Source: Solibacillus sp. FSL R7-0682
GTDB lineage: Bacteria; Bacillota; Bacilli; Bacillales_A; Planococcaceae
Assembly (NCBI RefSeq): GCF_038005985.1
Contig: NZ_JBBOUI010000001.1
Coordinates: forward strand, 3,306,001 to 3,370,000
DNA length: 64,000 bases
Direction: 5' to 3'
Shown here: one piece after another, positions 9,700 to 59,839 of the stretch
Position numbering within the stretch: the stretch's first letter is position 1
Layout of the letters: every line of letters starts with the position of its first letter
The notes under the pieces: generated by a model
What the model was told of the DNA's origin: nothing
The model's database searches: none
Seen by the model: only the letters and a program-made list of their open reading frames with translations
Program-made: the position numbers and the translations under genes

Positions 9700-10305
9700 T
9701 CAACTATGAATTAACGTAAATCCTGAAACCTCAATTGCACCTGCATTTTCAAGCACTTTTTTCGCATGTCGCATTGTCGTTCCAGTTGTATAAATATCGT
9801 CAATTAGTAGTATATTTCTACCTTTTATTTTCGAACAATCTATGACATCGAATAGCTGCGAGGTTTGAAGTCTTTCATCTCTAGTTTTTAACGATTGAAT
9901 GTCAGAGGATCGTTTTGTTAGGTGATGTTCAAAAGGAATTTTTGCCGCATTCAATAATTCGTCCACATGAGCAAATGTCCGGATGTTCAAATTTTCAGGA
10001 TGCATAGGGATGGGGATAATGAGACGCTTTTCATTTTTTAAATGTAGGTGGAGGATTTCATTAAACACATGAGCTAACAACACATCATGCATAAACTTGT
10101 AGCGATGTAAAAAATCTTTCATTGCTTCATTATAATAAAACAACGAGAAAATACCGGTTTCTTGCTGAGTTTCGATTCGTTCAAATTTCGATTCACAACG
10201 ATTACAAATTGCTCGTGGCAATGTTTTTTGTAGTAGCTCCTTCCAGCCAAACCTAACTTCAAGAACGCGCTCACATAATAAGCAATGGGTAATTGGTTTA
10301 TTCAT
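9700..10305 (-). CDS. comFC: Late competence protein ComFC, phosphoribosyltransferase-like
   Basis: 201 residues. An N-terminal four-cysteine zinc finger (CLLCERV and ICNRCESKF) is followed by a PRT domain with the PRPP loop ILLIDDIYTTGTTM. ComFC acts with ComFA in uptake of transforming single-stranded DNA. Its ATG overlaps the comFA stop by 8 bases, so it is operonic. No comFB lies between, unlike in B. subtilis. Confidence 0.93.
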   Translation of the reverse strand: MNKPITHCLLCERVLEVRFGWKELLQKTLPRAICNRCESKFERIETQQETGIFSLFYYNEAMKDFLHRYKFMHDVLLAHVFNEILHLHLKNEKRLIIPIPMHPENLNIRTFAHVDELLNAAKIPFEHHLTKRSSDIQSLKTRDERLQTSQLFDVIDCSKIKGRNILLIDDIYTTGTTMRHAKKVLENAGAIEVSGFTLIHS

Positions 10306-11707
10306 GACGATTCATCTCCATTATTTTCGCTTTTGCTAAGTCCATTTCGACAGTTTTTCCATGATGGAAAAAGACAATGTCTCCATCTGGATATTGACTG
10401 TTTCGTCCCACTCGCCCACTGATTTGAATAAGCGCACTGGAGGTGAAGATTGGGTTTTCTGCTCCAACCACTGCTACTTGTACGTTTTTAATCGTAATTC
10501 CCCGCTCTAAAATTGTGGTCGTAAGTAAGCCTTTTCGCTGTTCGTTTCGCAACTCCAACACTTTTTCTTTCCTCGTTGGATCTTCTGCATGCACACTCGT
10601 AATGGTAGGCTCTATTTCTATAAAAAGTGGCTTCGCTGTTTCCATGAAATCAATCGTTGGGAAAAAGATTAAGAATGGTTCATTTTTATCAAGTTTTTGC
10701 TTTACCCATCGCGTAAGTTTTTGAGGGATGTGCCCCTTTCGAAACATTTTTTCATAATTCCATAAGGATTGATAAGTCGGCACGGGAAGCGAGTGGCCAT
10801 GAAATCTCCTTGAGATAAAAGAATAACCCCAATTTTCCTTATTCTTTCGATTAAATAGTGCTTGTGAGGGGGTTGCAGTTACAAAGGCGATTGGTGCTTC
10901 CTTCGTTTTTGCTTTTATAACAGCACGTTGAAGCGCCTCATCATATGTGTACGGAAATGCATCTGCTTCGTCCACAATCATGACATCGAATGCCTGTTCA
11001 AAGCGGTATAGCTGGTGAGTGGTAGCAATAACTAACTGTGCAAATCCTTGCTGTTTTGGTGCACCTCCATATAATGCGTGAATACAAGTACTAGGAAAAA
11101 CTTGCTGAAACCTAGGGAATAATTCGAGCACGACATCGGTTCTCGGTGTCGCAACACAAATCCGTTTTCCTGCTTGTAGCGATTCAAAAACTGCTGAAAA
11201 TAAAATTTCTGTTTTACCCGCTCCACAAACTGCGCTAATTAAATGATTGTTATTTTGCGCAATGCTACTCGCCAGCTCCTTTGCTGCACGGGCTTGGTGA
11301 GGAGTTAATTGTCCTATCCATGAAAATTGGTGCTTCGTTTTTAATGGTTGTAGCTGCCGAGGGTCTGTATTCCAAATAATAAGCTCATCGCAGCTACACA
11401 TACGCCCCATCGTAATACAGTGCCGACAATACGTACAAATTTGGTGGCATTTTGCACAATGAAAGGAAACAAATTTTTGGTGCGATGTATTGTGACATCG
11501 CCTACAGCTTAATTTCTGGGTAATCGTGACTGCCTTCATTACGTCAAAATATCCTTTTTGAATATAGGATTCAATTTTAGCTTGTGGAAACGGAGTATTT
11601 GTTCTCGGCCAGATACGTCCTGTGAAAAAATCTTGAATTGCTTTTTCTACTATAAAACCTTTATAGTGAGCAGCTTTCGTCTTCTTTCGGAATGATTGTT
11701 TAATCAA
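10298..11707 (-). CDS. comFA: DNA translocation ATPase ComFA
   Basis: 469-residue superfamily 2 helicase-like ATPase. It has a zinc finger of CxxC motifs near residues 60-100 (CRRCHN, CAKCHQIC, CRHC), Walker A AVCGAGKTE, the DEAD box MIVDEADAFP, the SAT-like FVTATPS and a C-terminal QISGRVGR. It drives inward single-stranded DNA transport at the competence pore. The start is TTG at 11707 behind GAGGTG with 7-base spacing. Confidence 0.94.
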   Translation of the reverse strand: MIKQSFRKKTKAAHYKGFIVEKAIQDFFTGRIWPRTNTPFPQAKIESYIQKGYFDVMKAVTITQKLSCRRCHNTSHQKFVSFHCAKCHQICTYCRHCITMGRMCSCDELIIWNTDPRQLQPLKTKHQFSWIGQLTPHQARAAKELASSIAQNNNHLISAVCGAGKTEILFSAVFESLQAGKRICVATPRTDVVLELFPRFQQVFPSTCIHALYGGAPKQQGFAQLVIATTHQLYRFEQAFDVMIVDEADAFPYTYDEALQRAVIKAKTKEAPIAFVTATPSQALFNRKNKENWGYSFISRRFHGHSLPVPTYQSLWNYEKMFRKGHIPQKLTRWVKQKLDKNEPFLIFFPTIDFMETAKPLFIEIEPTITSVHAEDPTRKEKVLELRNEQRKGLLTTTILERGITIKNVQVAVVGAENPIFTSSALIQISGRVGRNSQYPDGDIVFFHHGKTVEMDLAKAKIMEMNRHE

Positions 11708-11821: not shown

Positions 11822-11846
11822 GGATTGGATTGGATTGGATTGGATG
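11822..11846. repeat. Five-unit GGATT pentanucleotide microsatellite
   Basis: GGATT is repeated four times and ends in GGATG, in the GT-rich leader about 115-140 bases upstream of comFA. Pentamer tracts can slip. No promoter could be fixed relative to it. Confidence 0.9.
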
Positions 11847-11858
11847 AGGTTACTGGGG

Positions 11859-12054
11859 TTAATGTCCAGATTTCTCGAGTAATAAGCCAAATTAAGGTGG
11901 TTATTGGACATTTAAGAAGTTATTTAGGAAAAAATGATTGCTTAATAGCCTATTGCAAATAGTTATTAGACAAGTTAGGTTTTTATGGACAAAACTTCAT
12001 CAATAACGGACATTTCATACTACTTAATTGACATATATTCAGCGTTTTAGGACA
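11859..12054. repeat. Degenerate ~21-bp-period array A (TTATTGGACA-like core)
   Basis: GGACA or a one- to three-base variant starts at 11864, 11886, 11906, 11927, 11947, 11968, 11987, 12008, 12029 and 12050, giving steps of 19-22 bases. Most cores are preceded by TTATT/TTAAT. The ~10 bases between cores are not conserved. No sustained reading frame crosses it. It lies between comFA and degV, with a GT-rich flank at 11730-11860 and a CA-rich flank at 12065-12120 (plus strand). No known element is recognised. Confidence 0.75.
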
Positions 12055-12120
12055 AGTTCTTTTCTTAGATCCACCATTAATCTGTAATTAGCAAACACGA
12101 CTCCACAATCCATCAAAAAA

Positions 12121-12151
12121 CAAAAAGCCACTACCTTAAAATAGTAGTGAC
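12121..12151 (-). terminator. Terminator of degV
   Basis: GCCACTAC (12127-12134) pairs with GTAGTGAC (12144-12151) allowing one G-T pair, with an A tract on the 5' plus-strand side (T tract on the transcript). A nearly identical hairpin lies at 45672-45696. Confidence 0.8.
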
Positions 12152-12165
12152 TGATTGTTTGCTTC

Positions 12166-13008
12166 TTATTTCTTCATCCAGCCCACTGCGATAGCGCCTT
12201 CGCCTAAGTGGGTGCCGATTACGGGGCCAAAGTAGCTGAGTGTGAAATCTACGGTTGGGTAGGTTGCTGCTAATGTGTTCATCCATTCGCGTGCTTCTTC
12301 TTCGCAGTTCGCATGGATAATTGTCGCTTGAAGTGAGCCGTGCTTTTCGATTGCAGCAATTAACTGTTCTTCTACTTTGCGCATTGCCTTTTTGCGCGTA
12401 CGAATTTTTTCAAATGGGACGATTACTTTATCTTGGAAGTGCAAAATCGGTTTGACTTGAAGTAACCCACCAATTAAAGCGGCTGCTGCCGAAAGTCGAC
12501 CACCGCGCTGTAGGTGTGATAAATCGTCCACAATAAAGTAAGCATTCATCGTGTCTTGTAGTGCTTCTAAATGGGCCATAATTTCTTGTCCAGAAGCACC
12601 TTTTTGAGCGAGCTTTGCTGCCTCTTTAGCATACATCGCTTGTACATAGCATGCTACTTCTGTGTCAAATGCAAATAAGTTTACATTTTCAACCATATCT
12701 CCTGCTTGTACAGCTCCTTGGAATGTACCACTAATTCCACTCGATAAATGGATTGTAACAATATCCTCATATTCTTTTGCTAAATTTTCATAAAGCTCTA
12801 CGAATTTTCCGATTGGCGGCTGTGTTGTTTTTGGGAACTCTTTTGCTCCACGAACACGATCGTAAAATTCAGAAGCTGTAATATCGATTTCTTCATCATA
12901 AATTGTTCCTTCGATGTTGACACATAAAGGAATCATATTAATATTATATTTTTCTCGTTCTTCCTGAGTTAAATAGGCTGTACTATCTGTAACAATTGCA
13001 GTTTTCAT
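12166..13008 (-). CDS. degV: DegV-family fatty-acid-binding protein
   Basis: 280 residues. DegV signatures are VTDSTAYLT near the start, TTQPPIGKF, IHLSSGISGTFQGA and LQRGGRLSAAAAL. DegV/FakB proteins bind a fatty acid and can present it to a FakA kinase. This one sits by degSU-comF as in B. subtilis (yviA), so a fatty-acid kinase role is inferred from the family, not proven here. Confidence 0.92.
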   Translation of the reverse strand: MKTAIVTDSTAYLTQEEREKYNINMIPLCVNIEGTIYDEEIDITASEFYDRVRGAKEFPKTTQPPIGKFVELYENLAKEYEDIVTIHLSSGISGTFQGAVQAGDMVENVNLFAFDTEVACYVQAMYAKEAAKLAQKGASGQEIMAHLEALQDTMNAYFIVDDLSHLQRGGRLSAAAALIGGLLQVKPILHFQDKVIVPFEKIRTRKKAMRKVEEQLIAAIEKHGSLQATIIHANCEEEAREWMNTLAATYPTVDFTLSYFGPVIGTHLGEGAIAVGWMKK

Positions 13009-39631: not shown

Positions 39632-41446
39632 TTAGTTTCTCGCGTAATATTCTACAATGCCGTTGTAAATGGACTGTGCGAAAATCTCAATATATTGGTC
39701 GTCTAATAGCTTCGAGCGGTCTTCTGCGTTACTTACAAATCCTAGCTCTACTAACACGGCTGGAATTGTTAAGCTTCTAATAACTTTAAAGTCTTCACGC
39801 TTAACACCACGATTGCTCATGTTGGCATTTTTGACGATTTGATTATTAATATTTGTCGCTAAAACAACATCTTCTTTTTCATTATCATTTGATGTAATGC
39901 TATAATATGTTTCCGTGCCTTTTGGTGATGTATTCGTCGAAGAGTTGGCATGAAGACTAATGAACATTTCACCATAATTACTCTTTGCAAACGTTATCCG
40001 GTCATCAAGTGATGGATATGTATCGCCCGTACGTGACATTAATACCTTTGCTCCGTCTGCTTCAAGCTTTTGTTTTACCAAGTTACTTACTTTGAAAACA
40101 ATTGATTTTTCAACTGCTTGTCCACTGACTGCCCCAGGATCTTTCCCACCATGACCTGGGTCAATGATAATAATGCGATCCTGTACAGCATTCCCAACCG
40201 TATTTTTTAAACGTAAATAACGTTTGTCCACATATCCAACCGTACCTTCGTAATATACTTCAACCCAGTAGCCATTGTGTGATAATACATCTACAACTGT
40301 TCCGCGGTTAATTTTGGCAAGGGACGTCGAGCTAGAAGAACTTTGCTCTCGAATATTTAAGTTATTAACTGTTGCAATACCGATAGACGATGTTTGGACA
40401 GGTGGCATATCCACTTTCGGCTCTTCAGTCGGTTTTTCTGTATCCGTCGGAGCTGTTGTTGGCTCTTCAACCTCGGGTTCAGTTGGCTTTGTTGTTGGCT
40501 CCTCGGCTGGCTTTTGTTCAGTTGGCTTTTGTTCTGACGGAGGATTTTCTTGCTTAATTTGCTCTTCAGTTTTCGTATATTCCTTTGCAACGAAGGCAAA
40601 TTGACCATTGTAAGCAACTTTTAACCAATAGCCTTGATCTTCAAATACAGAAAGTTCTTTTCCAGTATTTACTTTACCTAAAATATTTGTTTTATTATCA
40701 CTTGCAGCACTTGAACGTATATTTAATCCGTCCACTGCAACAATAACTTTCCCAATCGCATTCGCTACATCCGGAGCTGGTCCACCATGTACCGGAAGAT
40801 CTAATCGAAACTTTTCAGATGATGCACGTGCAACGAATGATGAAAACTGGGCTCTTGTTACCGGAGCATTTGCGCTATACTTTGTTGCATCTCCAGTACC
40901 ATTGGTAATTCCGTTATAGTAGATTGCCGAAATATACTTATAGTACGGATCGTTTTTGGCAACATCCGTAAACGGCAAATCTAAATTTGCTGTTATTTCA
41001 ATATTTAGATTGAACGCTTTTGATAATACTTTACTCATTTCATTTCGAGATAAAGCAACTTTCGGCCCAAACTTGCCTGGAGAGTATTCGCTAAAATAGC
41101 CAAGCTCCACTGCCCGCTCAACATAGCCTGATAATGCCGCATTCGTTTTTAAATCAATATCCGTGAAGGATGATTTCGTCACCACTAATGGGGTTTTCCC
41201 TGTTGCTACCACCACCATTTTTGCAGCTTGTCCACGGGTTACTTGTTCAGAAGGTTTAAATACACGCTTGCCGTTTTCAAAAGAACCTTCTAAGACACCA
41301 AGCTCTACTAAATACATAATTTCTTTATACGCTGGATGCGATGAAGAAAGATCCTTAAAGGAAATGTTTGCTGCCTGTGCACTGTGAATTGTGAAAAATG
41401 ATAAGACAATGACCGTTAACATGAAGCTGATTTTCTTTATAAACAC
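39632..41446 (-). CDS. SLH/SH3b N-acetylmuramoyl-L-alanine amidase (Amidase_3)
   Basis: 604 residues. Signal peptide to ~25, three SLH repeats (~27-205), SH3b (~235-293), a Pro/Glu/Thr-rich linker (~295-350), second SH3b (~352-408), zinc amidase (~420-602). Zn ligands and catalytic Glu are visible in IIDPGHGGKDPG, EKSIVFKV, SLHANSS and VELGFVSN. It cuts the MurNAc-L-Ala bond. It is anchored through SLH, with SH3b modules likely positioning it on peptide stems. Confidence 0.94.
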   Translation of the reverse strand: MFIKKISFMLTVIVLSFFTIHSAQAANISFKDLSSSHPAYKEIMYLVELGVLEGSFENGKRVFKPSEQVTRGQAAKMVVVATGKTPLVVTKSSFTDIDLKTNAALSGYVERAVELGYFSEYSPGKFGPKVALSRNEMSKVLSKAFNLNIEITANLDLPFTDVAKNDPYYKYISAIYYNGITNGTGDATKYSANAPVTRAQFSSFVARASSEKFRLDLPVHGGPAPDVANAIGKVIVAVDGLNIRSSAASDNKTNILGKVNTGKELSVFEDQGYWLKVAYNGQFAFVAKEYTKTEEQIKQENPPSEQKPTEQKPAEEPTTKPTEPEVEEPTTAPTDTEKPTEEPKVDMPPVQTSSIGIATVNNLNIREQSSSSSTSLAKINRGTVVDVLSHNGYWVEVYYEGTVGYVDKRYLRLKNTVGNAVQDRIIIIDPGHGGKDPGAVSGQAVEKSIVFKVSNLVKQKLEADGAKVLMSRTGDTYPSLDDRITFAKSNYGEMFISLHANSSTNTSPKGTETYYSITSNDNEKEDVVLATNINNQIVKNANMSNRGVKREDFKVIRSLTIPAVLVELGFVSNAEDRSKLLDDQYIEIFAQSIYNGIVEYYARN

Positions 41447-41643
41447 GCTGTGATCCTCCCTCAGCTAATAATTAACTACCATTTTATCAAAAATCACACA
41501 AATAATACACTGAATTTGGATTGTTTCTATTTTTATTCTATAAATGGAATTATTTATAATGTTACATTTTATAGTTTTGGAGGTTTCTTGTATAAAGAGG
41601 GGGTATTTAATGGGCTAAATGCTGGATGGTGCATTGTGTAGGG

Positions 41644-41936
41644 CAGTATTGGACCAAATGATATGATTAGTGGACATACGCTCCTCAATATTAGACAAAA
41701 ATCAGGCGATAGCATCGTTATTTTGACAAGCAATTCCTCTCTTGCAAACCTGATAATTTTTAATAGACAAAAGCTTATAGTTAAGGTACTTTTTCTTTGG
41801 TTAATAGAAATTTTTCGAGTCATTTAGGACATTTTCAATCCGAAAAAGGACAATCTTTAACATTTAATGGACAAAGACGGATTTTAAAGACGAAATATTC
41901 TAATTAACGACCTATTTCTTCTTGATAAAAGACATA
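41644..41936. repeat. Degenerate ~21-bp-period array B (TTATTGGACA-like core)
   Basis: GGACA or a variant starts at 41651, 41672, 41693, 41724, 41743, 41765, 41785, 41806, 41827, 41848, 41869, 41888, 41908 and 41930. Steps are 19-22 except one of 31. Clean GGACA cores occur at 41672, 41827, 41848 and 41869, each 21 bases apart in the last three. Inter-core sequence is not conserved. The array lies between a GT-rich flank (41570-41650) and a CA-rich flank (41942-42075). No gene is supported. Confidence 0.78.
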
Positions 41937-42074
41937 AACTTTATCTTTTTCCAAGCATCAACACTATGCAAACACAAAAATATAACTTAACAATCACAAT
42001 GCTTTTCTTTTATACAGACAAAGTAAGATTCAATACACACTGCCCGTACCTCAATCACCACACCCTGAAAACAC

Positions 42075-42111
42075 AAAAAACCATGCAGCGCCCCAAATAA
42101 ACGCTGCATGG
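42075..42111 (-). terminator. Terminator of the 221-residue SLH protein gene
   Basis: CCATGCAGCG (42081-42090) pairs perfectly with CGCTGCATGG (42102-42111), with an A6 tract giving transcript T6. Confidence 0.88.
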
Positions 42112-42142
42112 TAAATCGATCTCTTTTAATTCAGTTACTCTT

Positions 42143-42808
42143 TTACTCCACACTAATAATCGTGAAATCATCGGTCGCTGTTATTGCACGATGTAAAAAT
42201 GTTGTTAGCTGACCGCGTGTTAATGTTGCATACGGACTAAATGTTGTTGCTGTTGTACCCATAGTAATCCCATAGTCAATTAACGTTTGAATATAACGCT
42301 TTGTATTTGCATCTTTAATTGCATTGACATCAGCAAACTTCGTCTTCGTTACATTTGCTACTTCTAGTTCAAACGCTAACGTCAGCATTTTGGCAATTTC
42401 TGAACGCTTTAATATGGCATTAGGTCGGAATGTTCCGTCCGTATAGCCGCCAATTATATTTCGCTCATACAATGCTACGACTGCCCCATAATACGGACTA
42501 TTCGTTGTTAAATCTTTGAAATTCGGATTTTTACCAGATGTTTGATCAAAGCCTAACGCATTCGCAATAAATAACGCTGCTTCACCGCGGGTTGCCGGTT
42601 TTGTTGATTGAAAAAGTGTTTTTGTTACACCTGTAACAACCCCTTGCTCTGTTAATTCGATTATTGCATCATAATGACCATCCTTCACCGTTACATCTGA
42701 GTAAGGGTTTGTCGCAGCTGTTGCCGGCGCATCGATGACAAACGCTACTGTCACTGGTAACACGAGCATCGCAGCAAAATAGTGTGATCGTTTTTTAGTT
42801 AATTTCAT
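42143..42808 (-). CDS. Small SLH-only surface protein
   Basis: 221 residues from ATG 42808 (MKLTKKRSHYFAAMLV), behind GGGGGAGAGGA. The frame runs a little upstream without a better start. After the signal peptide it is essentially three SLH repeats (~40-215; TDGTFRPNAILKRSEIAK, TFSPYATLTRGQLTTFLH) with no effector domain. It may be a wall-polymer-binding adaptor or filler. It lies 70 bases after the glycosidase gene with no terminator between, so it is probably co-transcribed. Confidence 0.88.
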   Translation of the reverse strand: MKLTKKRSHYFAAMLVLPVTVAFVIDAPATAATNPYSDVTVKDGHYDAIIELTEQGVVTGVTKTLFQSTKPATRGEAALFIANALGFDQTSGKNPNFKDLTTNSPYYGAVVALYERNIIGGYTDGTFRPNAILKRSEIAKMLTLAFELEVANVTKTKFADVNAIKDANTKRYIQTLIDYGITMGTTATTFSPYATLTRGQLTTFLHRAITATDDFTIISVE

Positions 42809-42878
42809 GCAATCTTCCTCTCCCCCGTGGCCGCCAGTCATCTATTCTCTAACAAGCTTACCACGGTTCGTTTTGAAT

Positions 42879-47945: not shown

Positions 47946-50816
47946 TTAGTTAGCAGCGTTTACTACTAATTTTTGAGCAATTACGCCTAATTTGTTACCA
48001 TATGCATCAGTTAAAGTTAATTTTGTGTTATCAGTGTTTGTATTAACAGTTAGACCAGTTGCATCAACAGCTACAGGTTGAGCGAATGTTAATACTAATA
48101 CTTTGTCATCTACTAAATCAGTAGTTCCAGCAACACCAGTAGCAACAGTGTATGATACTGAAGTTGTATTTTGAGTGATTACAAAGTTAGCTGCATCTAC
48201 AGTTGAATCTTTGATAGACTCAGTGAATGTTAATTTAACACCAGTAGCTAAACCAGCAGCATTTTTCACATACTCAGCTTTATCTAATGCTGGAGCTACA
48301 TTATCTTTTAATGTAATTGCAGACTCATAAGCTTTAGAAGTTGTAGCTGAACCAGAGATAAATTTGTTAGCTTCAGCAGTTACTGTAGCATCATATTTAA
48401 CAGTATCAGCATTGATTGTGAATTTAGCAGCTTTATTTTCTTCATTAACTTGGTAAGAAGTTGGTAATTCAATGATTACTACTTTTTTATCAGAGTTTGA
48501 GAAGTAAACATCAGAACCAGCTGGTAAATCAGCACCGTTTAATTTATAAGCTGTAGCTAAACCAGCAGCATCGTTAACTTTACCAGTGTAAGTTACAGTT
48601 AAAACATTCTTACCATTAACCACTGAAGATGCAACTGTTGGTGCAGTTGTTGTATAAGTAACTACATCAGTTGGTACTGTGTAAGAAATAGTTGTAGCTT
48701 CGCTTGATTTGTTACCTGAAACTACTGCGCCTTTTGCTAAAGTAATTGTGTAAGTTTTACCTGCTTTTAAAGTATCAGCAGCAAAAGTAAGCGTTAAGTC
48801 TTTACCAGAAACAGCTGCAGTTTGAGCAACTAAAACATTGCCTTCTTTAACAGTAATAGTGTTGGCAGTTGTGCTATCTAATGCTTTATCAAATGGTACA
48901 ACGATAGTAGTAGCAGTAGATGAGATTAATTTTTCTGATTTAATTGCTGGAGCAGTTAAATCTTTTGATAAAGTTACAGCGCCTGCAAATTCAGTACCTA
49001 ATACGCCAGCAGCGTCAGTGTAACCAAATACTTTTACAGATAAAGCAACAGAAGTTTCGTCTTTACCATATAATAAGTTCGTTGTGTTAGATGAAGTTTC
49101 AACAACATTAACTTTTACAAATTTAGAAGAACCAGTTGTAGCATTACCATCTTCATCAACTAATGCAGTAGTTACATTGAAGTTTGTAGCATCAATTGTT
49201 AAGTTACCTTTTTTGATTTCAAGGTTAGCGGCTGCTAATGTAGATACTGGTTTACTGAATTCAACGATGAATGAGTTAGCATCTTCAGCTTTAACAGAAG
49301 AAACTTTAGTTGCTGAGTTATCAGCAGTAACAGTTACTTCAGTAGATACTAATACATCCACGTTACCAGCGAAGTCAGTAACATTTGTTAAGTCTACAGT
49401 GTGCTTACCGTTCGCTAATACTGAAGCAGCAGCGATTGTGTAAACATATTTACCAGCTTTTGAAGAGTTTACTGGTTGAGTTGTAGCAGTAGTTTGGTCG
49501 ATAGAAGCACCTGTGTAGCTTGTACCGAAGTTAACTGGCTCATCAAAAGTTAATACTACATTAGCACCTTCTGCTACAGCAGATAATAATTTTGGAGCAG
49601 TTGTATCTTTAGCAACTTTTACTTCTTCTACTTTAATTTTTTCAAATTTGTTGAAGAATGTATCTAATAATGCACCTTCAGCGATTTCAACATTTACACC
49701 TGTTGCAGGAACGTTTGTAGCTAATAATAAGATTGCAGATTTGCCATCTTCAGCTAATTGAACATCATTTACTGTTACTGCAGTAGTAGCAGCAGTTTCA
49801 GTTACAACAAAATCAGCAGCTGTTAAGCTTTCTTTGTAAACAGCTTTGTTGAAAGCAACTTTAACTTCTACAGGGTTAATTGCAGAAATAGATTCTACTT
49901 TTGGAGCTTTTGCAGCTTCTTCAACTTTAGCGATTTTTTCTTCAGTAGCTTTTACAGTTGCGTTAGCAGCTGTAATTGCAGCTGTTACTTTAGCAGCTTC
50001 TTCTTCAGTAATTACTTCTTTAGCAGCTTCTAATGCAACTTCTACTTCAGTAATTGCAGCTTTAGCAGCAGCTACTGCAGCTTTTGAATCAGCAATAGTT
50101 TCGATTTTAACTTCAGCGTCTAAAGCTTTAACAGCAGTTTCTAAAGCAGTTGTTGCTTCAGTTAATGTTTCTACTAATTCAGCAGAGTTATCTGCATCAG
50201 CAGCGTCGATTGCACGAGTTAACATTACAGCGAACTCTTGACGAGAGATTGAGTCGTTTGCAGCTAATTTGTCGCCTTTACCGTTGATAACGCCAGCAGC
50301 TACAGCTGTTGAAAGGTAAGCTTCAGACCATTTACCTGCTACTGTTTTAGCATCAGTAAATTTAGAAAGATCAGCTTCGCCTTCTAAACCGTAAGCTTCT
50401 ACGATCATTTTTGCAGCTTGCGCACGAGTTAAGTTAGCATTAGGAGCGAATTCAGTTGCGCTCATACCGTTTACGATACCAGCGTTAACTACAGCTACTA
50501 CAGCACCTTGGAACCATTGACCATCTTTAACGTCTGTGAAGTTTTCAGTACCTTCAGTTGATAAATCTAATGCAACTGTGAACATTTTTGCAGCTTGTGC
50601 ACGAGTTACGTTACCTTGTGGAGCGAAAGAACCATCTGGGTTACCAGTGATGATTTCTTTAGCAGCTAAAGCTTCTACTGATTCTTTAGCCCAAGATGCG
50701 ATTTTATCAGCATCTGTGAATTCAGCAGCTGAAGCTACTGGTACGATTGCTGAAGCTACTAATGCAGCTGTTGCAGCTGTTGCGAAAAATTTACGACCTG
50801 TATTTTGTTTTGACAT
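47946..50816 (-). CDS. S-layer protein with N-terminal SLH domains
   Basis: 956 residues. The signal peptide (MSKQNTGRKFFATAATAALV, cleaved near ASAAEF) resembles L. sphaericus S-layer leaders. Three SLH repeats (~30-205) are followed by an Ala/Glu-rich helical segment (~215-305) and several Ig-like SbsA/Big-type modules to the end. It is very Ala/Thr/Val-rich, has repetitive codon use, and AGGAGG sits 9 bases before the ATG. This fits a highly expressed lattice protein. Likely exported with SecA2/SLAP help and held by pyruvylated wall polymer. Confidence 0.9.
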   Translation of the reverse strand: MSKQNTGRKFFATAATAALVASAIVPVASAAEFTDADKIASWAKESVEALAAKEIITGNPDGSFAPQGNVTRAQAAKMFTVALDLSTEGTENFTDVKDGQWFQGAVVAVVNAGIVNGMSATEFAPNANLTRAQAAKMIVEAYGLEGEADLSKFTDAKTVAGKWSEAYLSTAVAAGVINGKGDKLAANDSISRQEFAVMLTRAIDAADADNSAELVETLTEATTALETAVKALDAEVKIETIADSKAAVAAAKAAITEVEVALEAAKEVITEEEAAKVTAAITAANATVKATEEKIAKVEEAAKAPKVESISAINPVEVKVAFNKAVYKESLTAADFVVTETAATTAVTVNDVQLAEDGKSAILLLATNVPATGVNVEIAEGALLDTFFNKFEKIKVEEVKVAKDTTAPKLLSAVAEGANVVLTFDEPVNFGTSYTGASIDQTTATTQPVNSSKAGKYVYTIAAASVLANGKHTVDLTNVTDFAGNVDVLVSTEVTVTADNSATKVSSVKAEDANSFIVEFSKPVSTLAAANLEIKKGNLTIDATNFNVTTALVDEDGNATTGSSKFVKVNVVETSSNTTNLLYGKDETSVALSVKVFGYTDAAGVLGTEFAGAVTLSKDLTAPAIKSEKLISSTATTIVVPFDKALDSTTANTITVKEGNVLVAQTAAVSGKDLTLTFAADTLKAGKTYTITLAKGAVVSGNKSSEATTISYTVPTDVVTYTTTAPTVASSVVNGKNVLTVTYTGKVNDAAGLATAYKLNGADLPAGSDVYFSNSDKKVVIIELPTSYQVNEENKAAKFTINADTVKYDATVTAEANKFISGSATTSKAYESAITLKDNVAPALDKAEYVKNAAGLATGVKLTFTESIKDSTVDAANFVITQNTTSVSYTVATGVAGTTDLVDDKVLVLTFAQPVAVDATGLTVNTNTDNTKLTLTDAYGNKLGVIAQKLVVNAAN

Positions 50817-59020: not shown

Positions 59021-59839
59021 TTACTTTTCTTCATAAACTCTAATTCTTTTTAAATCCCCATCATTACCGGAGAATGTAACTAATGTCTCGTCTTCATCGA
59101 TATCAATCACTTCACCCGTAATTTCAGCATCTTCGTATTCTTCCCAAATATCATCAACGATACTATTTATGAATCTTTCTATCTTTGTAGATGATAGATT
59201 ATACCAATCTCTATAGTAACTTCTTTTATTTAAGTCGATTTCGATTTCTACCTCGATATCATCCTTATCACCTTTGAGTGTGATTTCGAATTCCATACCA
59301 TTCCAATCTCCGTAGTCTTTATTCAATTGCTTATCCAATTCTTTTAAAGAAACAGTAGATTTTGATTTTGCTAATAATTGTGCTTCTAGTTCTGCAATTT
59401 TAGCATCTTTTGTTTTAATTGCGTTTTCTAATTCTACAATTTTAGCATCTTTTGTTTTAACTGAAGTTTCTAAATTAGCAATACTAGCATCTTTTGTTTT
59501 AATAAATCTTTCTAAATTGGAAATTTCGTTCTTTAAATCATTTGGAGCTACAGTATCTGAAATATAAATAGATTTAGTTCTTCCATCCCAAGTAACAATT
59601 TTGTTTAGTACTCCTGATAAGGCGCGCACAGGTAAATAAGTAGTTCCATCGATAACGATTGGATCAACATTACCAGACACTTGAACATTATTATTTAGAA
59701 TCTTAATTTGTGGGTTAGTCTCAACTTTTTTCGACACGACAGCAGCTTCAGAGACAGTTGTTTGTGAAAAAATTAATAAACTAGCAAACATCGTTGAAGC
59801 AATAACTTTACCTGCCTTTTTAAACATCTTTTTTTCCAT
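59021..59839 (-). CDS. Secreted stalk-domain protein with coiled-coil repeats
   Basis: 272 residues, ATG 59839 with GGGGTG 8 bases upstream. The signal peptide precedes a stalk domain (~45-95; TTYLPVRALSGVLNK, TKSIYIS). A coiled coil (~105-155) follows with three tandem 14-residue units KTKDAxIxxLExxx, and then a C-terminal domain (~165-272; LNKDYGDWNGMEFEITLKGD) of unknown type. It is related in its first part to the proteins at 45742 and 53380. No catalytic motif was found. Confidence 0.8.
   Translation of the reverse strand: MEKKMFKKAGKVIASTMFASLLIFSQTTVSEAAVVSKKVETNPQIKILNNNVQVSGNVDPIVIDGTTYLPVRALSGVLNKIVTWDGRTKSIYISDTVAPNDLKNEISNLERFIKTKDASIANLETSVKTKDAKIVELENAIKTKDAKIAELEAQLLAKSKSTVSLKELDKQLNKDYGDWNGMEFEITLKGDKDDIEVEIEIDLNKRSYYRDWYNLSSTKIERFINSIVDDIWEEYEDAEITGEVIDIDEDETLVTFSGNDGDLKRIRVYEEK
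59397..59518. repeat. Three tandem 42-bp repeats coding for the coiled coil
   Basis: The core TAGCATCTTTTGTTTTAA recurs three times at 42-base spacing within the stalk-domain gene. Each unit codes for 14 residues (two heptads). In-frame slippage would lengthen or shorten the coil. Confidence 0.8.

Follow-up and report, generated by a model that had tools for sequence, protein, structure and literature searches.

What are the short GGACA-like words that recur at 21 bp steps between two SLH-domain genes of this Solibacillus chromosome, and is there a protein that reads them? The words, here called array B, lie in a window of 64,000 nt (the whole stretch of DNA that was analysed, C1:3306001-3370000; the genome measures 4.06 Mb, and its dnaA gene is located at C1:331) that also holds a second such array, array A. 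In our view array B probably belongs, as a dispersed copy in decay, to a family of repeats, and a protein with a NERD (nuclease-related) domain probably reads the words of that family.

Arrays A and B and their own chromosome

The features of the window that bear on the two arrays are:

11906-12070, minus strand: array A, with words at 11906, 11968, 11987, 12008, 12029 (TGACA) and 12050
12119-12152, minus strand: terminator-like hairpin after gene 12166-13008, with array A beyond it
39632-41446, minus strand: left-hand flanking gene of array B, SLH and Amidase_3 domains (Pfam), with array B on its 5' side
41651-41713, minus strand: array B, first block, with words at 41651, 41672 and 41693, read directly from the sequence
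41724-41769, minus strand: array B, off-phase words between the blocks, TGACA at 41724 and AGACA at 41765
41806-41889, minus strand: array B, second block, with a degenerate word at 41806 and exact GGACA at 41827, 41848 and 41869
42073-42112, minus strand: terminator-like hairpin after the right-hand gene of array B
42143-42841, minus strand: right-hand flanking gene of array B, SLH domains only (Pfam SLH), with array B on its 3' side

A preliminary description had placed seven words in array B, and each is found exactly where it was placed: GGACC at 41651, GGACA at 41672, AGACA at 41693, AGAAA at 41806, and GGACA at 41827, 41848 and 41869. Five of the seven fit RGACA, those at 41651 and 41806 being one letter off. 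In the first block RGACA reads on the plus strand and TGTCC on the minus strand, and the TGTCC orientation is also the NERD-sense orientation of the array beside this genome's own NERD gene. Both flanking genes point left and array B lies beyond the hairpin of the right-hand one (42073-42112), which puts it between a terminator-like hairpin and the next gene. Array A, in the same dialect, is flanked by gene 10298-11707, which is helicase-like, and gene 12166-13008, which is of the DegV family.

The intergenic region 41447-42142 contains three exact RGACA pairs at 21 bp, a number reached by none of 2,000 dinucleotide-preserving shuffles, so that the array of GGACA-like words at 21 bp steps is real as claimed; array A has a single such pair, a number reached by 4 of 2,000 shuffles. 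Counted over both strands of the whole window, RGACA pairs number four at lag 21, whereas the other lags average 0.25. A motif-free lag-21 test was weaker (reached by 34/2,000 shuffles for array B, 107/2,000 for array A), and Tandem Repeats Finder called neither array. The two arrays do share word and period, are sequence-specific and are intergenic, as had been proposed. Other repeats in the window are a perfect GGATT run near array A (11822-11845, period 5, 4.8 copies) and 42-bp tandem repeats within long ORFs at 49993-50083 and 59366-59526.

On the chromosome as a whole the exact three-word pattern occurs 9 times, against 1 in the reversed control. A single word pair was hardly enriched (25 vs 20), and neither the pair with one mismatch (114 vs 135) nor a looser search for three words in which as many as three mismatches were allowed (87 vs 114) was enriched, so these single-pair and loose patterns, hardly or no better than their reversed controls, were dropped as a genome-wide test. 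Reading the best matches of the pair and loose three-word searches gave about 11 array clusters, A and B included. The preliminary description's reading of A and B as two independent arrays is incomplete: both belong to this set of about 11, and to a larger system linked to a NERD gene. Six of the clusters, at 0.66, 0.70, 3.27, 3.32, 3.35 and 3.38 Mb, are 0.62-0.73 Mb away from the origin on one arm or the other, a symmetric band that was noticed after the fact and possibly reflects chance or old inversions. The RGACA strand of the clusters shows no replication-fork bias.

The only NERD gene found in this genome, at C1:704747-705678, matches in two pieces in different frames beside an array adjacent to enolase, the enolase neighbour being confirmed by Pfam. 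It is frameshifted, by a real break or an assembly error; the worn state of arrays A and B fits a broken reader. Beside the same enolase gene (L010, 1477-1746), three-word blocks recur every 103 bp.

RGACA arrays across the family and the protein beside them

We surveyed 151 genomes of the family with the exact three-word pattern and its reversed control. Randomly spaced cores would have spoken against the preliminary description, but exact triples exceed the control across the family (949 vs 92) as they do in this genome. At least three exact triples occur in 39 genomes (6 in the control) and at least five in 28 (2 in the control), the richest being G100 (272 vs 0) and G099 (117 vs 0). One or more triples, by contrast, occur in 57/151 genomes against 50/151 in the control; only the counts differ, and the presence of one exact triple was rejected as a test of a genome. 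This weakens the genome count, not the pairing of arrays with NERD genes described below.

Those array-rich genomes that were read have their own dialects around GACA, some of them several (G131 has three at about 15 sites). For a set of 68 arrays in 11 genomes, drawn from 72 loci by a seed rule of three exact RGACA words at 21 bp, the conserved word is about 10-13 bp long and some 8 bases are nearly uninformative. Of the 408 steps, 352 measure 21 bp, two per array being forced by the rule. Because the rule demands three exact words, the set excludes worn arrays like A and B. By a simple ORF rule the flanking genes are convergent at 26 arrays, tandem at 38 and divergent at 4, and divergent flanks are also few among arrays of genome G138 (2/20). 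At 50 of the 68 the RGACA strand runs in the direction of the upstream gene; a polarity rule after terminators was dropped, since tandem cases were mixed once taken in the NERD sense. A coding origin as 7-codon repeats was likewise dropped for these arrays because those examined lie between genes; four contig-search matches (L055, L057, L090, L109) do, by eye, resemble coding repeats. Placement in a single macrodomain was ruled out, the array sites of G131 spanning 0.49 to 3.69 Mb of a 4.0-Mb contig; in that genome, provided that its contig begins at the origin, the RGACA strand runs with the replication fork at 13 of about 15 sites. CRISPR architecture is far removed from a 21-bp unit in which about 8 bases vary.

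Larger periods and other words are found as well. Three-word blocks recur every 103 bp in two Ureibacillus massiliensis arrays (L078, L093), and blocks of other genomes are about 61, 81 or 120-153 bp apart. In Ureibacillus and Neobacillus (L066, L064, L086, L078, L093) adjoining arrays with other words (GCACGAATC, TAGCCAAAA, TTATCAGCGAATC, GATCACA) share the same intergenic regions.

When 140 array-flanking proteins were clustered, the largest cluster was a NERD protein encoded beside seven arrays in seven genomes and five genera, four of these neighbours being one orthologous locus that adjoins enolase. The protein is about 320 aa long and has an N-terminal NERD domain followed by a zinc-ribbon-like motif with four conserved cysteines; its C-terminal stretch, covered by no library match, reads to us as a putative winged helix. 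The N-terminal domain matches the NERD family (PF08378), the Pfam cut-off of 22.1 bits being passed by all 7 proteins scanned (40.9-60.8 bits) and matches at E up to 0.5 (best 2.5e-20) being found in 64/64. E46, D81, K96 and three of the cysteines are invariant in the 64 proteins, with E94 and the fourth cysteine conserved in at least 90%; E46, D81, E94 and K96 are presumably catalytic, as in PD-(D/E)xK enzymes. The zinc ribbons of IS91 and IS1595 transposases are weakly matched by 12/64 and 11/64 proteins, and no IS200/IS605 transposase domain is among the Pfam families shown for NERD proteins. A PDB sequence search gave nothing firm (best E 0.037), and PADLOC and NCBIfam models gave only partial, weak matches to the six proteins scanned, with no full-length match to a defence model. 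Phage or plasmid origin was considered and rejected: one protein had no tblastn match in either collection, and viral contigs were empty for another.

A profile of the protein matches 135 of the 151 family genomes, 1 to 12 times each, so mere presence says little. Among the matches listed for a 299-genome sample of the phylum, the C-terminus is reached only within this class (own genome, G001, G343, G417), the other listed matches covering mainly the NERD part. According to the part of the source cited here, the NERD domain had to its authors' knowledge been unstudied in any bacterial protein before 2022, and residues of the domain proved necessary in staphylococcal SmdA, a protein without several of the most conserved ones (PMC9040797). 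Our literature search, with most subscription papers outside its scope, returned by title or start of abstract no description of the arrays or of a link between NERD proteins and repeats.

Private words, dispersed elements and orthologous arrays

Sixty-six NERD genes were examined for arrays: the 7 found as array neighbours, 39 hand-picked among the listed matches of the profile (many from one genus and from array-rich genomes), and 20 from the lower end of that list, taken from its final 24 rows with three others already included. An array at lag 21 lies beside 56/66 of these genes, or 49/59 without the seven picked for their arrays, the profile having been built from proteins encoded next to arrays, and the closeness of two of the 59 (L232, L234) to an array having been known in advance. 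Placement is downstream only in 39, on both sides in 12, upstream only in 5; 10/66 have no array by this test, and neither does a further gene from G001 (L276). The forward match exceeds the inverted one in all 12 two-sided cases, indicating direct orientation, and downstream arrays start at most 44 bases past the stop codon in 29 of 51 genes. Within 450 bp downstream, lag 21 is the best lag with identity of at least 0.5 for 41/59 NERD genes; the same test was passed by 3/38 genes of the window (at 0.50-0.51), 4/41 genes of seven contigs fetched for their arrays, and 0/4 other ORFs in NERD loci. NERD genes from two genomes of other families also have arrays (L274, L275), and a Paenibacillus-labelled contig fetched for its array proved to carry an adjoining NERD gene (L151). 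The pairing of NERD genes with arrays is well supported.

Every NERD paralogue is accompanied by a word of its own. Paralogues within one genome differ (G101, G062, G099), and the diversity is wide, including TTGGCTAAAT, TTCTAATA, TTCTACTTT, TTTGRCTATTATC, ATCGGATAAT, GGACAGTATTT and others. Word similarity tracks protein similarity, as measured over 54 of the 56 proteins (L244 and L256 have words but are absent from the alignment): Mantel r is 0.51 for the C-terminal region and 0.46 for the NERD domain, with 0/2,000 permutations reaching either, and regression gives the C-terminal region more weight (0.35 vs 0.12), values that are inflated by shared ancestry. At the enolase locus of several genomes (L010, L156, L166, L168, L222, L227, L228) NERD gene and array are both present with different words, as if specificity were drifting at one inherited locus.

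Within one genus (16 genomes) two words could be followed. TTGRCTAAAT pairs occur in 5/16 genomes (control 0), beside a NERD gene in four (G062, G092, G126, G101) and in G138 away from any adjoining NERD match. Triples of TTCTAATA, one mismatch allowed, occur in 11/16 genomes with 9 to 240 matches each (control 0). The count of TTCTAATA arrays (0-240 matches per genome) tracks the identity of each genome's best-matching NERD protein to one NERD subfamily (Spearman 0.90, 16 genomes), a correlation likewise inflated by shared ancestry and in which the identities for G132 and G092 come from broken NERD pieces. Two genomes with no NERD match at all (G032, G083) have zero TTCTAATA triples, as does this Solibacillus genome. 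Four readable NERD proteins at 51-60% identity lie beside words other than TTCTAATA, the reading of words being based on the 11 of 20 loci that gave an ORF by a simple rule. Arrays also persist where no intact close NERD gene is present, in G132 (59 matches), G108 (11) and G092 (133, its NERD gene in two pieces), and G032 keeps RGACA words in the same situation.

The dispersed copies resemble the NERD-adjacent ones in detail. None of twenty TTCTAATA arrays of G138, hand-chosen from the places listed, overlaps a long ORF. Their steps run 20/21-20-19-21-21-21-21-21, often followed by about 81 and a further block, with few exceptions: L337 lacks its first word, one word is missed in L324, and four arrays end on a step of 20. 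The same 20-20-19-21-21-21-21-21 spacing is found in 7/9 NERD-adjacent TTCTAATA arrays; the other two (L310 and L311, from G114 and G120) have plain 21 bp steps. At least 10 of these 20 can be aligned with NERD-adjacent arrays, the alignments beginning close to the first word; one (L340) aligns over 323 bp at 81% with the array beside the NERD gene of its own genome. Similarity between spacers is higher at matching positions (0.369) than at differing ones (0.285). The shared spacing pattern and alignable sequence favour descent from a common element over independent birth. Independent local growth, which had been offered for arrays A and B, fares less well, on the evidence of G138 rather than of A and B themselves.

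Between orthologous arrays the words are kept while the spacers drift in four of five pairs, which agrees with the sequence-specific maintenance that had been suggested. In L161 (G037) versus L170 (G053), with no gap inside the array, words agree at 72/77 positions and spacers at 33/71; three more pairs, with gaps inside the array, give 49/55 vs 36/70, 47/52 vs 34/63 and 52/55 vs 39/51, and the fifth is weak (93/146 vs 117/218), word positions having been defined in each case from one of the two sequences. Flanks of L160/L169 (34/72) are no better kept than spacers. In L161/L170 the spacers (33/71) are less alike than the flanks (156/205), as if units there turn over faster than their surroundings.

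Proposed system and its alternatives

From the association of protein and word we infer that the NERD protein reads the words beside its gene. Its putative winged helix would bind a word of about 10 bp, one site per two helix turns, so that the sites of an array would all line up along the same side of the double helix. By analogy with RAYT enzymes and their REP sequences, the NERD nuclease might nick or cut and repair copying would follow, spreading the elements or keeping them; for TTCTAATA the copied element would have nine words, spaced 20-20-19-21-21-21-21-21 bp, to which more blocks may be added. Beyond the word beside each paralogue's gene, copies of those words that were searched occur between genes elsewhere on the same chromosome. 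A broader proposal, which we offer tentatively and hold at somewhat less than an even chance, is that the NERD/zinc-ribbon/winged-helix proteins form a selfish or domesticated class of nuclease-repeat pairs in Bacillales, copying private elements to intergenic sites, with words specific to each paralogue and a cycle in which elements are gained and spread, the gene breaks and the arrays decay; arrays A and B, which look like decaying members, would represent the last stage.

In the part of the source cited here, the RAYT gene is flanked by its own extragenic repeat, copies of which are dispersed in the genome; RAYT and REP coevolve and repeat abundance tracks gene presence; and RAYTs are related to IS200/IS605 transposases, with two flanking REP palindromes in inverted orientation (PMC2817692). 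The likeness to our arrays is a private repeat family beside an enzyme gene with dispersed copies in the same genome. The differences are that the enzyme here has a NERD domain, a zinc-ribbon-like motif and a winged-helix-like tail instead of an IS200/IS605-related transposase, and that the words are repeated directly every 21 bp, with one orientation shared by the upstream and downstream arrays in the 12/12 two-sided cases among 66. The NERD-array system is thus not a member of the RAYT-REP class, differing in both enzyme and repeat type.

Two other known arrangements invite comparison. Homing endonuclease genes adjoin their own target-like sequence and occur in broken copies; broken NERD copies occur here too (own genome, G092), but each chromosome has many conserved words instead of a single site that insertion destroys. 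Direct repeats in phase with the helix are also known as LytTR-type repeats and PhoB/PhoP boxes, whereas the present arrays seldom lie between divergent genes and are linked to a protein of another kind.

Among alternatives, the NERD protein might be a host DNA-binding factor, serving chromosome architecture or a boundary after terminators, with the arrays as fixed functional sites, a nuclease domain that is structural or rarely active, and no spreading. Conservation of words over drifting spacers in 4/5 orthologous pairs, the adjoining of array and NERD gene to enolase in several genera, the scarcity of arrays between divergent genes (4/68 and 2/20), and a 21-bp phasing that keeps one DNA face all accord with such a role; fixed sites sit poorly with a copy number of 0 to 240 matches within one genus, with the spacing pattern and alignable sequence common to NERD-adjacent and dispersed arrays, and with nuclease-like residues conserved in 64 proteins, and we regard this explanation as unlikely, if still to be reckoned with. 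A defence system, with the nuclease directed against DNA that enters the cell and retained or regulated by the chromosomal arrays, would suit the many NERD paralogues and the weak matches to the NERD-containing defence proteins PglW and MAD6. It leaves the dispersal of the arrays unexplained and no PADLOC or NCBIfam model fits any of six proteins over its full length, which makes it improbable.

Action of the arrays as RNA in 3' untranslated regions is highly improbable: 29/51 downstream arrays of NERD genes do start within 44 bases of the stop codon, but a terminator-like hairpin stands ahead of many arrays, and both orientations relative to the neighbouring genes occur. The notion that they are neutral minisatellites, with the NERD gene an incidental neighbour, draws on the duplication of multi-unit blocks in some genomes (103-bp blocks in L010; G119). 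It is strongly disfavoured, to the point that we give it almost no credence, by conserved words among near-random spacers, by arrays beside 49/59 NERD genes and by words that track the protein.

If a NERD protein does read the words, a widespread and little-studied domain would be tied to a concrete DNA target, and the dozens of natural protein-word pairs could allow a recognition code to be learned. Such a system would add to RAYT-REP an unrelated way for a chromosomal enzyme to keep a repeat family, here one scattered between the genes of many Bacillus-like bacteria with each version of the word paired with its own NERD gene. At three NERD loci (L243, L271, L254) long direct duplications, of about 775, 473 and 188 bp respectively, flank the gene on both sides.
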